Shown here piece after piece: positions 3,117-7,980 of a DNA stretch of 20,505 nucleotides. Position numbers and translations under genes: made by a program. The notes below the pieces were generated by a model. It did no database searches and was not told the origin of the DNA. It saw nothing but the letters and a program-made list of their open reading frames with translations. Source of the stretch: a virus; the IMG/VR virus record IMGVR_UViG_3300021356_001676, positions 1 to 20,505 of that record. One strand, 5' to 3'. Positions within the stretch are counted from its first letter, which is position 1, and every line of letters begins with the position of its first letter.

Positions 3117-3140
3117 AAAAAAAGGGGAACAATGTTCCCC
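3117..3140 (-). terminator. Intrinsic terminator behind pstS
   Basis: The minus-strand RNA has GGGGAAC, a three-base loop ATT, GTTCCCC, then seven U (3123-3117). The stem is perfect over seven base pairs and begins 12 bases after the pstS stop. This is a standard Rho-independent terminator. Confidence 0.9.
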
Positions 3141-3152
3141 ATTATACTACTA

Positions 3153-4121
3153 TTAGTTGATAGAGTCTACAGCAGCAAGAGCCTTTTGTCGAAGATCCTC
3201 TGGGAGAGGTACATACCCCAAAGCATCAGACTTTGCCTGCGACTTTTCACTCAACATATAACGAAGGGTTTCCTTGACTCCAGGAGCAGACTCTGGATAG
3301 GCAAGAATCCAGGTAAGAGATACGATAGGATACGCATTCTCACCAGCAGGGTTAGCATCAGCACCACGAAGTTGATCGTCCAGGACAATCTGTGATAGAC
3401 CTGCTGCAGATGTTTCAGCAGATGCTTTGACATAATTACCTGCCTTGTTTTGTAGAGAAACCTGTTGGAAGTCACTGTTTACAACATAACCATAGTTCAG
3501 GTAACCGATAGCGCCAGGTTGATTCTTGATAGTGGCAGCAACACCAGAGTTACCTTTACCACCAACACCAACTGGCCAAGCAACTGCCTTACCAGTTCCT
3601 ACATTCTTCTTCCACTCAGGAGAGAATGCAGACAGAGAGTTGGTGAAACCTTTGGTAGTACCAGAACCATCAGAACGCCATACAGTGACGATATTCTTAT
3701 CGGCACATCCAAACTCAGACCAATTAGTGATCTTACCAAGGAAGACATCAGCAAGTTGTGTCTGAGTCATCTTTGCTTCGCAACCAGGATAGTTGTAAGC
3801 AGGAACAATCGCACCACCAGTCATGGGGACATGCACCATGGGCAGTTTCTGTTTGGCATCGCTCACAGCACCATCACTGGCACCGAAGTCAACAGTCTTA
3901 GCAGTATATTGACGGACACCAGAACCACTACCAACTGCTTGATAGTTGACTTGGTTACCCGTCTCCTTGGCCATATCTTGGAACCAGGAGTTGTATAGAG
4001 GGGCAGGGAAGGTAGCACCTGCTCCATTTAGTTTAAACGTTTCTGCTTTCTCTGTGGAAGAACCACAGGCAACCATGAGAGGGGTGGCAGCAATAACTGC
4101 TGCGAGTGCTTTGAGTTTCAT
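3153..4121 (-). CDS. pstS: Phosphate-binding lipoprotein PstS
   Basis: The periplasmic phosphate-binding subunit of the Pst ABC transporter, 322 residues, close to the usual length. It has a lipoprotein signal peptide with lipobox LMVAC (C19). Phosphate-site blocks are visible: GAGATFPAPLYNSW near the mature N-terminus, GSGSGVRQYTAKTVDFGASD, and WRSDGSGTTKGF, followed by GAIGYLNYGY. It would be lipid-anchored and deliver phosphate to the host PstCAB permease, which this window does not encode. The start follows a good TAGGAAA ribosome site and lies ten bases after the small barrel gene, so the two form one operon ended by a strong terminator. Base composition is higher in G+C than in most of the window (50% at 3541-3600 by count), consistent with acquisition from a host. 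pstS is a known cyanophage auxiliary gene. Confidence 0.96.
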   Translation of the reverse strand: MKLKALAAVIAATPLMVACGSSTEKAETFKLNGAGATFPAPLYNSWFQDMAKETGNQVNYQAVGSGSGVRQYTAKTVDFGASDGAVSDAKQKLPMVHVPMTGGAIVPAYNYPGCEAKMTQTQLADVFLGKITNWSEFGCADKNIVTVWRSDGSGTTKGFTNSLSAFSPEWKKNVGTGKAVAWPVGVGGKGNSGVAATIKNQPGAIGYLNYGYVVNSDFQQVSLQNKAGNYVKASAETSAAGLSQIVLDDQLRGADANPAGENAYPIVSLTWILAYPESAPGVKETLRYMLSEKSQAKSDALGYVPLPEDLRQKALAAVDSIN

Positions 4122-4131
4122 TTATTTCCTA

Positions 4132-4500
4132 TCAGAACTTGTACTTGGTGCCGACTTCAAACTTCCAATCGCGGGCTTCATCCTCACCCCACTTGTGTTC
4201 AAACTTTGCCTTTGCAGAAAGTTTTTCAGTAATGGGGATTGATGCACCGACTTCAGCAACAGTGAAGGTATCACCATCGAAGACTTCTACACCATCAGCA
4301 GCGGAAAGACCACCACCAACTTCAACGTATGGTTTGATGCCACTTTCAAGTTTCCATCCATAACCCAGGCGTCCCTGATGAACTGTTTTGGCATACCCTT
4401 CCTCGTCACCCTTGAATTCGGACTTGGTGGATACGTATGGACCTGCCATTGCGGGGGCGGTAACCGCCAAACCGAGCAGGGCAACTGCGAATGCTTTCAT
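4132..4500 (-). CDS. Small outer-membrane beta-barrel-like protein upstream of pstS
   Basis: A 122-residue exported protein. The signal peptide ends AMA before GPYVSTKSEF. The mature part is built of alternating hydrophobic/polar strands and ends in an aromatic residue (GTKYKF), the usual signature of outer-membrane barrel insertion. It is related to the 126-residue protein at 4669-5049: both start GPYV after the signal, share GASIPITEKLSA versus GVGIPVTDALSA, and end KYKF versus KYNF. About 100 mature residues would make a small barrel of perhaps eight strands, or part of an oligomer. It is co-transcribed with pstS ten bases downstream, suggesting a role under phosphate limitation such as altered outer-membrane permeability. 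That role is inferred. Confidence 0.78.
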   Translation of the reverse strand: MKAFAVALLGLAVTAPAMAGPYVSTKSEFKGDEEGYAKTVHQGRLGYGWKLESGIKPYVEVGGGLSAADGVEVFDGDTFTVAEVGASIPITEKLSAKAKFEHKWGEDEARDWKFEVGTKYKF

Positions 4501-4533
4501 TTGTTTGTACCTTTGTGTTTTGTACTTGAATAT

Positions 4534-4618
4534 CTTAACTTAACCTGAAGTCTATGTCCACTAAGAAGTAGTTAAGAAAGACCTCCTAATATATTGGCAA
4601 GGTTAATCCAAATTTAAC
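4534..4618 (-). promoter_or_regulatory. Pho-box-like control region before the barrel-pstS operon
   Basis: The cyanobacterial Pho box is described as direct repeats of CTTAACCT spaced by three bases. On the minus strand GTTAAATT-TGG-ATTAACCT (4618-4600) gives two such units, matching 5 of 8 and 7 of 8, followed after six bases by TATATT (4593-4588) as a possible -10. Farther down, CTTAACTA-CTT-CTTAGTGG (4576-4558) is a weaker pair. A perfect CTTAACCT lies on the plus strand at 4539-4546, next to CTTAACTT (4534-4541). The host PhoB-type regulator could act here. The pattern is visible; binding is inferred. Confidence 0.5.
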
Positions 4619-4621
4619 CAT

Positions 4622-4645
4622 AAAAAAACCTCCCCTTAGGGAGGT
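4622..4645 (-). terminator. Intrinsic terminator behind the second barrel gene
   Basis: The minus-strand RNA forms ACCTCCC, loop TAAG, GGGAGGT, followed by a run of U (4628-4622). The stem is perfect over seven pairs. It ends the transcript of the 126-residue barrel gene, 23 bases after its stop, and isolates it from the barrel-pstS operon. Confidence 0.9.
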
Positions 4646-4668
4646 CGTTAGGATATCCTGATTTAATA

Positions 4669-5049
4669 TCAGAAGTTGTACTTGACGCCGAGCTTACCAC
4701 CGACTCCCAGATCATCCAGGAACTCGTCTTCTGCCGTGATGAAGCTGACCTCACCATATGCACTCAGTGCATCGGTGACGGGGATACCAACGCCTGCCTT
4801 ACCAGACACACGGGTGGAAAGTTCTTCGCCATCTACGGATACGATAGCGGGGCCACCTTGGACATAGAAGGATGCACCAGAGTCACCCAGAGCACCTTCG
4901 TAGCCCACATGAGCGTCGGTAGTTGCTCCAGTGTAGTCGTCTCCAGCCCAACCAGCATTGGTTTCTACATTAACGTAGGGGCCGGCTAGGGCTGCAGCGG
5001 GTGCAAAGGCGATTGCAGCGGCGGCTGCAGCGATAGTCGTTTTGAACAT
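4669..5049 (-). CDS. Second small outer-membrane beta-barrel-like protein
   Basis: A 126-residue exported protein with an Ala-rich signal peptide ending ALA, then GPYVNVETNAGW. The mature part is Gly-rich with alternating strands (YVQGGPAIVSVDG, AGVGIPVTDALSAYGEVSF) and ends KYNF, typical of outer-membrane barrels. It is a diverged paralogue of the 122-residue protein next to pstS. The ATG at 5049 has a good AGAGG ribosome site eight bases upstream. It is a single-gene transcript: its own stacked promoters at 5153-5186, a 5' palindrome, and a terminator at 4622-4645. G+C is high (57% in both 4741-4800 and 4861-4920 by count) compared with about 30-40% in most flanking phage genes, suggesting a fairly recent origin from a higher-G+C host. 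Function unknown. Confidence 0.78.
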   Translation of the reverse strand: MFKTTIAAAAAAIAFAPAAALAGPYVNVETNAGWAGDDYTGATTDAHVGYEGALGDSGASFYVQGGPAIVSVDGEELSTRVSGKAGVGIPVTDALSAYGEVSFITAEDEFLDDLGVGGKLGVKYNF

Positions 5050-5126
5050 TTTTGTTACCTCTTAAGTATATCTCGCAGAGTCGAACCTGCGGATGAAAGA
5101 AGACTCGACATGTCTTCGTATGTAAA

Positions 5127-5148
5127 GAATTGTCACATGTGACAATTC
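5127..5148. repeat. 22-base perfect palindrome at the transcript start
   Basis: GAATTGTCACA followed directly by its exact complement TGTGACAATTC. It begins where transcripts from the overlapping late and sigma70 promoters would start and lies about 80 bases before the ATG at 5049. It could be an operator for a dimeric regulator or, in RNA, a 5'-terminal hairpin that protects the message. Confidence 0.7.
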
Positions 5149-5152
5149 GATG

Positions 5153-5160
5153 TATTTATA
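5153..5160 (-). promoter_or_regulatory. T4-type late promoter TATAAATA
   Basis: An exact match to the T4 late promoter on the minus strand, in non-coding DNA 103 bases upstream of the barrel gene start at 5049. It overlaps the -10 of the sigma70-like promoter at 5158-5186. Confidence 0.75.
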
Positions 5161-5186
5161 CTACCTTAATACCTATGGTTTGTCAA
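5158..5186 (-). promoter_or_regulatory. Sigma70-like promoter, TTGACA-N17-TAGTAT
   Basis: A perfect -35 TTGACA (5186-5181), ideal 17-base spacing and a 4-of-6 -10 TAGTAT (5163-5158), directed at the barrel gene. A short inverted repeat, TTCGGG-AA-CCCGAA (5191-5204), lies just upstream of the -35. The host polymerase could read this before the phage late factors appear. Confidence 0.6.
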
Positions 5187-5205
5187 GTGGTTCGGGAACC
5201 CGAAT

Positions 5206-5796: not shown

Positions 5797-6016
5797 GGTC
5801 AAATCGTGGGTATAATTGTCCTCTGTGTGGTCTATCTGGTTCATAAGCAGGAACTGCAGATCCAATCGAACCCATTTTTAAATTTATAATTTCACCAGGG
5901 GAAATAGTTCCATTGGTTGTTTCAAAAGTTGCAGATTCGACTGATGAACCAAACTCCGCAGCATCTGGAGTACCATCTACTGCGGTTGTTAAGTTGTTGA
6001 GTGAATAATCAGCCAT
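5792..6016 (-). CDS. Small structural-type protein
   Basis: A 74-residue protein starting MADYSLNNLTTAVDG at the ATG at 6016, whose A is also the last base of the preceding stop (TGATG). An in-frame TTG one codon earlier is a less likely start. It is low in Lys and rich in Thr, Ser, Glu and Gly, with the segment FETTNGTISPGEIINLKMGSI resembling a short beta-structured virion piece. The end YEPDRPHRGQLYPRFDH is Pro/Arg-rich. Its place directly behind two large virion proteins, with translational coupling, suggests a minor structural or attachment component. No family recognised. Confidence 0.75.
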   Translation of the reverse strand: MADYSLNNLTTAVDGTPDAAEFGSSVESATFETTNGTISPGEIINLKMGSIGSAVPAYEPDRPHRGQLYPRFDH

Positions 6017-7980
6017 CAAACTACCCTCGCACAGAATAGAATACCCTTGGTTCTACTTTGGTCATTAGTATCATATGAACCAGTAATCACTTCATAAACC
6101 TCAGATCCACTGATAGTAACTGTGTCACCGTTCTGAATATTAGTAGATATTGCATTATAATCAAATTGGATTAATACAAAATCATCTGGTATATAATAAG
6201 GACAAGGTAACATTCTACTGGATAAAGGTAGTCCTTTAATTACGTTATTAGAAGATGCACTAGAGGGTATATCATTCGCAATATAAGTGGCATTATTGGA
6301 AGTCATGCGATCGGCATATCTTTCATCACTTGAATCTGGTCTGTAATATAATCTTGAAGCATAAATATCTGCACTTTCAGTATGAGGACTTGGCTCATAC
6401 TGGTCAAAAGTATACCAATCCTGATTTCCAGCATAACCTCTCATAGCACTTCTCTTACCAGCATTAGGATCAAGATTTATAAGATAAGTATAAAACTGTA
6501 GATAAGGAGAGTCATTATCAGAAGAGAAGTTTCCTGAATTATATGCATCTACTCTAGTAATAGTTCCCAAATTATAATGATCCAAATCAATTACACTTGA
6601 TGTAAAGTTGTGGAAGAAGAAACAACCTCCAAGGTTATCATTAATGTCTGAGGAAGATAACGTTGGAGACTTCCATATAAAAACAACAAAGTTTGGATCG
6701 ATTGTAGATTTGTATATCTTTAAATTCAATTCATAAGAGGTATAACTTGTTGGAATGTCACACAATTTTTGATAATTGACATGTCTCATTCCATAAGAAC
6801 TACTATCCATATAATAATTATCCAGCATACTTTCATGGTTGTTCATGATATCACTATAATCACTACCGTCTAATAAGTATGATCCAGCCCATCTTTTCCC
6901 ATACCCATGGCCACCCAAATAATCTTTATGAATCATACCATCTTGATAATATCCAGGATATCTTGTTTTAGTATCGATAGGCATCCAACCAGTATATCCA
7001 TTGGTATATAACGCACTACCATCAGCATGCCAGATCATATGATAGGTTGTTCCAAATTCTTTACTAGTGTCTACATCTAGTTTAAGTACCCTACCAGCAG
7101 AATTAGTATCTGCTTCTGGATTTTGATCGAACCAACCAGTAGTAGATCCATAACTTACAGAAGTAATAGCTTCAGGAGCAGCAGGTTCTACAATAATTGT
7201 AGTATAATCTTCATCCTCACAATATCGTCTAACAAAGAAATAAGTTCCGGCTTCCCCAGCGCTTGGAGTCCATGAACTAGTAACACCACTGGCAATGGTT
7301 TGTCCAAACGACCAGACGACTTCAGTATTCCCAATACTAACAATCTGAGATACCCCACCCCTATCGTCGATATATCTGGTTAGACCCATATAATCATAGG
7401 AACTAGACTCATTAGTAGTATCATTATGGAAAGATATAGTATCACCTTCAGTAAAGGTATATGTTCTATCAGTTCCAATAGACTGATACCCATTTTTATC
7501 ATAACCTCTAGATTGAATAGAAGTACCACCTGCGCCCGTAAAGGTTAGAGCATAACCAGATCCGCCACTAATATTTGCATCAATAACTAGTGTCAGTTCC
7601 ATATTACTGGCACCATTTATCGATCCACCAATATCTTCTGCACTTAAAGTTACTACCTCTCCTCCACTATACCCATAACCAGGGCGATTAACAGCAATTC
7701 CCTTAATATAATCATCTGATCCTCTAGTAATATAAAATGACGCACCTGTTCCTATTCCACTTGTAGAAATAGGTCTTACATCCTGATAATATATGTCACT
7801 TGCTTGAGAGACTTGACCTCCACCATTAAATGTAGAAACTCCAACTACGAGGCCGCTTAATGGTTCTCCGTGAAGTTGAGCAATACTTAATCCAATTCCC
7901 AACAGGTCTAGAGCTTCATCCCGAGTCCAAGTTCCTGCGTCTGCAGTATTGATGCCTACTGTGCTAATTGATACAGCCAT
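6016..7980 (-). CDS. Large virion structural / tail-fibre-type protein
   Basis: A 654-residue protein, probably part of the phage tail or fibre. The first 170 residues hold Gly-rich beta segments of the kind common in cyanophage virion proteins (RPGYGYSGGEVVTLS, ISGGSGYALTFTGAGG). The middle (about 270-530) is rich in Tyr, Trp, Asp and Ser, with many aromatic residues, as expected for a receptor- or glycan-binding surface. The C-terminal 70 residues (FVLIQFDYNAI, DTVTISGSEVYEVITGSY, GILFCARVV) form a compact domain seen in other T4-like phage structural proteins. The ATG at 7980 follows the 1415-residue gene by three bases, with GGAGG eleven bases upstream. The two are surely co-translated and may form adjoining parts of one fibre. 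Confidence 0.78.
   Translation of the reverse strand: MAVSISTVGINTADAGTWTRDEALDLLGIGLSIAQLHGEPLSGLVVGVSTFNGGGQVSQASDIYYQDVRPISTSGIGTGASFYITRGSDDYIKGIAVNRPGYGYSGGEVVTLSAEDIGGSINGASNMELTLVIDANISGGSGYALTFTGAGGTSIQSRGYDKNGYQSIGTDRTYTFTEGDTISFHNDTTNESSSYDYMGLTRYIDDRGGVSQIVSIGNTEVVWSFGQTIASGVTSSWTPSAGEAGTYFFVRRYCEDEDYTTIIVEPAAPEAITSVSYGSTTGWFDQNPEADTNSAGRVLKLDVDTSKEFGTTYHMIWHADGSALYTNGYTGWMPIDTKTRYPGYYQDGMIHKDYLGGHGYGKRWAGSYLLDGSDYSDIMNNHESMLDNYYMDSSSYGMRHVNYQKLCDIPTSYTSYELNLKIYKSTIDPNFVVFIWKSPTLSSSDINDNLGGCFFFHNFTSSVIDLDHYNLGTITRVDAYNSGNFSSDNDSPYLQFYTYLINLDPNAGKRSAMRGYAGNQDWYTFDQYEPSPHTESADIYASRLYYRPDSSDERYADRMTSNNATYIANDIPSSASSNNVIKGLPLSSRMLPCPYYIPDDFVLIQFDYNAISTNIQNGDTVTISGSEVYEVITGSYDTNDQSRTKGILFCARVV

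Follow-up and report, generated by a model that had tools for sequence, protein, structure and literature searches.

Host control of cyanophage phosphate genes has been described before. The pstS gene of phage P-SSM2 is placed under host PhoBR control, PhoB of WH7803 binds promoters of another cyanophage (PMC10976474), promoters and terminators flank pstS in nine cyanophages, and DUF680 proteins occur in 15 of 16 cyanophage genomes (PMC3037559). DUF680 has also been equated with the cluster PhCOG173 and linked to phosphate (PMC6224464, PMC9146016), and one DUF680 cluster and PstS are both over-represented at BATS (PMC3686209). Here we analyse IMGVR_UViG_3300021356_001676, an IMG/VR virus record whose entire 20,505 bases form our window, and within it a locus comprising pstS and two DUF680-type genes that we call barrel 1 and barrel 2. 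That the window belongs to a T4-like cyanophage is our inference from its genes and relatives. In eight cyanomyoviruses, Kelly et al. (2013) reportedly placed PhCOG173 between the Pho boxes and pstS; in view of this report and of the published link to phosphate, we do not claim the linkage as new. The operon and the family are already known, and the locus is real, recurrent and functionally coherent. We did not find, in the open-licence full-text literature searched, the division of labour between the barrels, the RNA leader, the porin behind that leader or the half-barrel idea set out below.

Our analysis suggests that the virus rebuilds the outer skin of its host during infection. The reading that we favour, and to which we give a little less than half of our belief, is that barrel 1 acts under PhoB control as a partner of PstS for outer-membrane permeability, and that barrel 2 is a late outer-membrane protein. 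Under phosphate starvation, host PhoB would bind the Pho-box-like repeats and switch on barrel 1 and pstS together; barrel 1, once exported, would enter the outer membrane, probably in oligomeric form, such as two six-stranded half-barrels closing one 12-stranded channel. There it would ease the entry of phosphate into the periplasm, where phage PstS would hand it to host PstCAB. Late in infection, the phage-modified polymerase would make barrel 2 behind a dedicated structured RNA leader, and barrel 2 would be a common cyanomyovirus outer-membrane protein whose gene gives up its place to a complete porin in some phages. At the level of sequence, this picture draws on the transcription units, the promoter motifs, the covariation of the leader, the linkage, the family, six-strand predictions and the porin behind the leader; PhoB binding, membrane insertion, oligomerisation, a pore, anion preference, phosphate flux and a function for the leader are inferred.

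Both barrels belong to the Pfam family PF24653 (cut-off 27 bits), barrel 2 with 162.4 bits over profile positions 1-122 and barrel 1 with 114.3 bits over positions 2-122, and both match phrog_417. They fall into two classes that we define by short patterns: class A, the type of barrel 1, has the mature start PYV[SEM][TS]K and the end KYKF, KYTF or KYRF, and class B, the type of barrel 2, starts PYVN. PstS alone served to fetch viral loci, of which the best 80 of 164 were kept; this set leans towards close relatives and has some redundancy, with 57 distinct barrel proteins among 91 operon entries. Dropping one locus that shared a contig with another and setting aside 14 of 79 with less than 450 nt upstream left 65. 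A same-strand barrel ends within 250 nt upstream of pstS in 60 of these 65 (39 class A, 20 class B and one other) and was not found in that interval in five. The two-barrel layout also recurs: where the sequence reaches far enough upstream of class A, a second barrel lies no more than 500 nt further up in 32 of 36 loci (31 class B and one other). Fetched by barrel 1 instead, 48 loci with at least 700 nt downstream have pstS as the next gene in 40 cases. The earlier note on this DNA, which was made from the sequence alone, proposed a link between such barrels and pstS, and the metagenomic loci bear it out in other phages. The contig from which one locus was dropped, IMGVR_UViG_2619619257_000003 (45.8 kb), carries two equal-scoring pstS copies, which may be a duplication or an assembly artefact.

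Isolates and single-cell genomes show the same association. A barrel adjoins pstS in 13 of the 18 such records that we read in detail, which were partly picked as doubtful, and two barrels stand with pstS in P-SSM2 (gp246, gp247, pstS), S-SM2, SynMITS9220M01, S-SCSM2R and S-B05. Distances compared by hand in 15 whole records place the late barrel near pstS in six (S-SKS1 besides those five) and at a distance of over 8 kb in nine. The wider neighbours vary, from talC in P-SSM2 to a ferredoxin oxidoreductase in S-SSM4, hsp20 in Syn19 and P-SSM7, and glycosyltransferases in S-SCSM2R. Barrel and PstS identities are weakly correlated across 47 operons (Mantel r 0.27, with 2 of 999 permutations as high); in ten operon pairs the barrels are at least 85% identical and PstS at most 62%, and the barrel and PstS of S-SSM4 are 86% and 52% identical to those of the window. 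Given this weak coupling of lineages and the kept adjacency, the two genes recombine and yet tend to stay adjacent. The surroundings of pstS are said to show no synteny (PMC10976474), a statement that the conserved barrel-pstS unit qualifies. In S-RIM12, P-RSM4 and S-TIM4, which have no barrel at pstS, hsp20 is followed directly by pstS. Eight metagenomic loci have a class A-type barrel without pstS, followed by a conserved open reading frame (ORF) of about 70 aa (KKNL..CCA.SP.CH...); by eye, several of these lie near gp32-like or ferredoxin/hli-like frames.

The promoter region of barrel 1 is consistent with control by PhoB. The 168-nt gap at 4501-4668 contains four of the ten YTTAAYYW half-sites found on both strands of the whole window, a post hoc clustering (binomial P 9e-7) in which two of the four sites overlap. 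The repeat found there, CTTAACTA-CTT-CTTAGTGG, can be set against 8-bp repeats of the CTTAACCT type with a 3-bp linker: its first half fits YTTAAYYW and its second is degenerate. The published rule for PhoB and SphR is one of direct repeats upstream of the -10 element, with three repeats for SphR (PMC1906773). Across 42 class A leaders there are 63 half-sites against 16.9 expected in mononucleotide shuffles, and a conserved block, TTAActT-gat-CTTAAaGACA, lies upstream of TATAAT. In class A leaders such as L076 and L073, an inverted repeat with one GGTTTGTC-like and one GACAAACC-like arm brackets the Pho-box promoter by eye. Induction of P-SSM2 g247 by P limitation may have been reported before.

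Barrel 2 appears to be controlled quite differently. Of 51 distinct class B leaders, 43 have the T4-type late promoter motif TATAAATA in the 200 nt upstream, versus none of 49 class A leaders, and the window has two copies, one of them ahead of barrel 2, as expected of a T4-type late gene at the level of the motif. Downstream of the motif, class B 5′ leaders share two hairpins with a conserved GUCGA loop and a CAUC spacer. We aligned 39 of the 55 leaders listed, leaving out three without these conserved elements and 13 that seemed redundant. Standard pairs fill 91.6% of the pair cells versus 74.1% in shuffles, and double-change cells number 103 versus 32.6; pairing falls to 40-60% when the partner is slid by 1-3 columns, and two of the five covariation measures, double-change pairs (68/500) and further pair types (371/500), are not clearly above shuffles. 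A single site of R1, the covariance model of the leader, is present in 15 of 16 whole phage records, nine of the 15 having been absent from model building, though their relatives were used. In all 15 the start codon of a PF24653 barrel lies at most 5 nt from the end of the site; the barrel is class B in 14 records and unclassed in one (P-SSM4). The podovirus P-SSP3 has just one barrel, a class A-like one, and no R1 site in its whole record. A pattern scan of viral contigs agrees, with a barrel-family ORF following in 118 of 120 among the matches listed. The leader may stabilise the mRNA or control translation.

Searched against Rfam, neither the leader in the window (E<=5) nor the element in 14 relatives (E<=1) gave a match. 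With the adjoining palindrome included, the window from 5050 to 5150 folds at -27.2 kcal/mol (z -2.9). We considered and rejected a host origin of the leader, since under stricter filters 3 of 300 host genomes gave a hit at E<=0.01, at a marginal 23 bits. Phage Sf-CH11 carries a wcaG RNA (RF01761, 88.6 bits; locus L221, 1200-1293) and a tRNA match a short distance before the leader and class B barrel.

The two leader pattern matches among the 120 listed that precede something else, which are identical in sequence, lead into a 490-aa protein with SLH and OprB domains. Among porin loci in viral contigs (the best 80 of 136), R1 lies at the start codon in 14, with at least 48.9 bits, and the remaining loci score at most 15.9; all 14 of these porins begin with an MFKSA-type signal peptide, as class B does. 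In two contigs the porin frame begins with a sub-threshold match to PF24653 (positions 1-30 and 1-31), and six leader-porin contigs, which are fragments of 30.9, 36.0, 22.1, 83.1, 115.3 and 95.9 kb, hold no barrel above the cut-off. The 95.9-kb leader-bearing contig (G301) encodes a tail tube, a baseplate tube cap, a gp32-type single-stranded DNA-binding protein and PhoH among ten proteins scanned, and on these genes it is a T4-like cyanophage contig. A phrog_5 search as a capsid check returned nothing in 15 contigs, and Gp23 was found in one of eight porin contigs (G317), where the porin locus gives only chance-level leader scores. The isolate S-SRM01 has an annotated porin, 70.5% identical, without R1. 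PF04966 and SLH domains have no match in either small barrel at E<=1 and are both present in a porin of this set (L242). In the simplest reading of these sequences, leader and signal peptide were kept and the protein body behind them was swapped; this speaks for class B as a putative channel protein of the outer membrane.

Structure prediction gave a consistent strand count. AlphaFold models built from alignments of 38 (barrel 1) and 37 (barrel 2) rows have six strands in both proteins, with mean pLDDT 80.7 and 80.3, respectively, and pTM 0.65, so that each chain is predicted to have six strands, not the eight of the OmpA/OmpX type. To our knowledge, the smallest natural outer-membrane barrels have eight strands. 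With six per chain, an open pore would probably need oligomerisation. In VIA-align, the barrel 1 model superposes on six strands each of the 12-stranded BrkA (Z 11.5, 2.0 A over 93 residues) and KdgM (Z 9.8, 2.2 A over 90) and on TMB10_163 (Z 9.9, 1.5 A over 88), versus 3.8-4.7 A over 94-103 residues for natural eight-stranded barrels and 3.5 A over 90 for the designed eight-stranded 6x9z. PDB sequence searches with the barrels gave no significant match. A heuristic assignment of inward and outward residues, which leaves out three unclassed barrels including the pstS-linked one of S-SM2, gives a mean inward net charge of +1.85 (1 to 5, n=55) for class A versus -2.36 (-4 to 0, n=61) for class B. 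The charge is at most a hint of anion preference for class A.

Several observations weigh against the favoured reading. The strict repeat YTTAA-N6-YTTAV is present in only 20 of 42 class A leaders, and we conclude from this that one half of the Pho box is often degenerate, as it is in the window; at least one half-site is found in 37 of 49 class A leaders but also in 20 of 51 of class B. The link to pstS has gaps on either side: pstS is not the next gene in 8 of the 48 metagenomic loci fetched by barrel 1, and it stands without an adjacent barrel in S-RIM12, P-SSM4, P-RSM4, P-RSM3 and S-TIM4. The podovirus P-SSP3 carries its class A-like barrel between hli and psbA (L171, 3912-4271), and the 8 kb viewed around it have no annotated pstS. 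Class B is itself found near pstS in metagenomes, 20 times directly upstream and 31 times just above class A, and units 1 and 2 may therefore not be independent. Foldseek returned no PDB match for barrel 1 at E<=0.001 (the best, an autotransporter, at 0.058), and by Z the barrel 2 model fits best on eight-stranded barrels (OprF, Z 10.2, 3.2 A over 100 residues). Class A inward faces average 10.2 K/R beside 8.3 D/E, and in both classes the mature protein as a whole has a negative net charge (A -2.7, B -11.2). Finally, 13 different mutations, of which many are disruptive, are described in ORF224 of S-TIM4 (DUF680); they arose on Synechococcus WH8102 only and reached a cumulative frequency near 100% (PMC6224464). 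This ORF (annotated 171632-171991) is exactly the R1-led class B barrel, and the mutations imply that class B is dispensable, and perhaps costly, on WH8102.

Of the other explanations, one that we consider unlikely is general repair or permeabilisation of the outer membrane as the host membrane ages, with neither barrel specific for phosphate. The porin behind the class B leader would suit it, as would the class A-type barrel that P-SSP3 has without pstS, whereas the tight coupling of class A to pstS and to Pho-box-like sites would not. The barrels might alternatively mask receptors or exclude superinfecting phage, the pstS link of class A merely timing expression; lambda Lom, an OmpX/Ail-type protein, provides the model. 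Such a role, which we judge distinctly unlikely, agrees with the small size of the barrels, the superposition of the class B model on OprF, OmpA, NspA, Ail and OmpX, the late promoter motif of class B and how common that class is, given that barrel 2 matches in 454 of 50,697 phage records (31 of which cover at least 80% of it). It leaves the Pho-box-like control of class A, its adjacency to pstS and the full porin behind the same leader unexplained.

That barrel 2 is a virion component made late strikes us as improbable. The late promoter motif would fit, and a DUF680 protein of 122 aa was detected in S-SZBM1 virions by liquid chromatography-mass spectrometry (PMC9146016), peptides for which membrane carry-over could account; a signal peptide and an outer-membrane-type C-terminus speak for another destination, and S-TIM4 ORF224 is called nonstructural (PMC6224464). 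Least probable of all, and in our view hardly credible, is that PhCOG173 acts through a regulatory role between Pho box and pstS, with the protein incidental. Such a role was reportedly proposed in 2013, and barrel 1 does sit between promoter and pstS and is found near the host-like gene psbA as well; a conserved exported protein with a signal peptide, a C-terminal F signature, strand alternation across the family and invariant residues is hard to reconcile with it. A more ambitious version of the favoured reading, which we hold to be doubtful, is that T4-like cyanophages run their own outer-membrane remodelling, in which a phage-specific structured RNA leader and a signal peptide would deliver a channel late in infection, with interchangeable bodies (six-stranded half-barrel or full SLH-OprB porin), and a paralogue controlled by host PhoB with pstS would form a homodimeric 12-stranded channel feeding PstS.

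In the window, all features of the locus lie on the minus strand (Table 1), in the transcription order barrel 2, terminator, Pho-box-like promoter, barrel 1, pstS, terminator.

Table 1. Positions of the features of the barrel-pstS locus in the window
Feature	Position	Strand	Remarks
Barrel 2 (class B)	4669-5049	-	126 aa; signal peptide; six predicted strands; C-terminal KYNF
Barrel 1 (class A)	4132-4500	-	122 aa; signal peptide; six predicted strands; C-terminal KYKF
pstS, phosphate-binding protein	3153-4121	-	322 aa; begins 10 nt past barrel 1 stop codon
T4-type late promoter motif TATAAATA, ahead of barrel 2	5153-5160	-	Motif match
22-nt perfect palindrome	5127-5148	-	Predicted 5′-terminal hairpin of barrel 2 transcript
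Two-hairpin RNA leader (model R1)	5052-5129	-	66.5 bits, E 6e-19; window sequence itself in model
Leader hairpin 1	5117-5112/5104-5099 (stem)	-	GUCGA loop
Leader hairpin 2	5091-5086/5079-5074 (stem)	-	CAUC spacer between hairpins
Terminator-like hairpin, unit 1	4627-4646	-	8 pairs + T-run
Pho-box-like direct repeat CTTAACTA-CTT-CTTAGTGG (8-3-8), second half degenerate	4558-4576	-	Conserved in relatives
-10 element TAAGAT, unit 2	4532-4537	-	Aligns with TATAAT of relatives
Terminator-like hairpin, unit 2	3124-3140	-	7 pairs + T-run

What had been described as a single cassette is, judged by these motifs, two transcription units, and the earlier note was right that each is closed by a terminator-like hairpin; between 2000 and 7000 there are eight terminator-like sites against 3.6 (sd 1.9) in shuffles. 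It was right, too, that the barrels are related, being paralogues with about 30% identity, and that a Pho-box-like region is present, as seen in the half-sites of the intergenic gap; the half-site excess and conserved block of class A leaders support a Pho-box-like promoter preceding barrel 1 and pstS. The late promoter motif and the RNA leader of barrel 2 were not reported in it. The base composition contrast that it drew holds against the 18 other ORFs measured (31-47% G+C, versus 55.9% for barrel 2, 49.6% for barrel 1 and 47.0% for pstS), though its value of 57% for barrel 2 does not. Its statement that the barrels flank pstS has to be corrected, since both precede it in transcription order. 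Nor is one self-regulated module supported: unit 1 has a phage late motif and unit 2 a putative host-type PhoB site, and in nine of 15 whole records the late barrel lies far from pstS, as given above. The pstS product matches TIGR00975 with 262.8 bits, above the curated cut-off of 205, as well as phrog_5385, and scores 205.4 bits against the separate equivalog NF008171, below its cut-off of 339. Two candidate features were rejected. A tRNA remnant at about 5072-5092, with a T-arm-like GGTTCGACTC, proved to be leader hairpin 2, and ARAGORN finds no tRNA in the window; a repressor operator at the palindrome is not borne out by relatives, which often show other inverted repeats there and not this sequence. 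Upstream of unit 1, a 654-aa ORF at 6016-7980 has no PHROG or Pfam match at E<=1.

Neither novelty of the barrel family nor a host origin of the barrels is supported. The barrels are members of the described family PF24653. They had been called host-derived, and a search of 300 genomes of the picocyanobacterial family found a barrel match in 43, above cut-off in 28 and mostly in frames of 200-440 aa; we reject a host origin for the barrels, since hosts carry remote and mostly larger relatives. The short host barrels (in G067, G279 and G300, and in G116 with stops) may be viral. Five host ORFs with frames of 260-360 aa contain two tandem units of the phage profile. In host His-rich proteins of about 330 aa, the C-terminal half matches the profile (hhalign 96%) and the N-terminal half does not (2%), the two halves matching each other over 55 columns only (93%). 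Since host proteins carry two tandem units, a 12-stranded barrel made from two units is plausible for hosts and, as a homodimer, for phages. In three of the five host loci with tandem units, that protein adjoins a His/Asp-rich outer-membrane-type protein, which is suggestive of metal handling.

PstS alone provides no passage for phosphate across the outer membrane. Should the barrels be channels, cyanophages would supply both membrane steps under starvation, and an outer-membrane channel built from six-stranded chains would, if true, be architecturally new for proteins of this kind. One gene is marked by the leader in 15 of 15 myovirus records examined, which offers a direct handle on it, and the porin found behind that leader opens the function of the common 'DUF680' gene to testing.

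Among known systems, the closest is the family itself, PF24653 Phage_OMP (phrog_417, T4-GC 241, PhCOG173 or 'DUF680'), of which both barrels are members above cut-off and whose T4-GC 241 label is borne by P-SSM2 gp246 and gp247 beside pstS; Pfam and PHROGs assign it no function, and we describe here its division into a late class with an RNA leader and a Pho class. The SLH-OprB porins of cyanobacteria (Som type) and of phage S-SRM01 are candidates for proteins that work alike, a porin of this kind standing after the class B leader in some contigs of T4-like cyanophages, but they are proteins of about 490 aa with an SLH domain, and the small barrels are not members by sequence. Six strands of KdgM and of the 12-stranded autotransporter barrels superpose on the barrel 1 model at 2.0-2.2 A; these are single-chain barrels, whereas the phage chain has half the strands and no significant sequence match in the PDB. 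The phosphate-inducible porins PhoE and OprP are likewise Pho-regulated outer-membrane proteins for phosphate entry, an analogy only; they form 16-stranded trimers. The leader of barrel 2 has its nearest analogue, again no more than that, in the 5′ leader hairpins of E. coli ompA, where a structured leader of an outer-membrane protein mRNA has a stabilising role.

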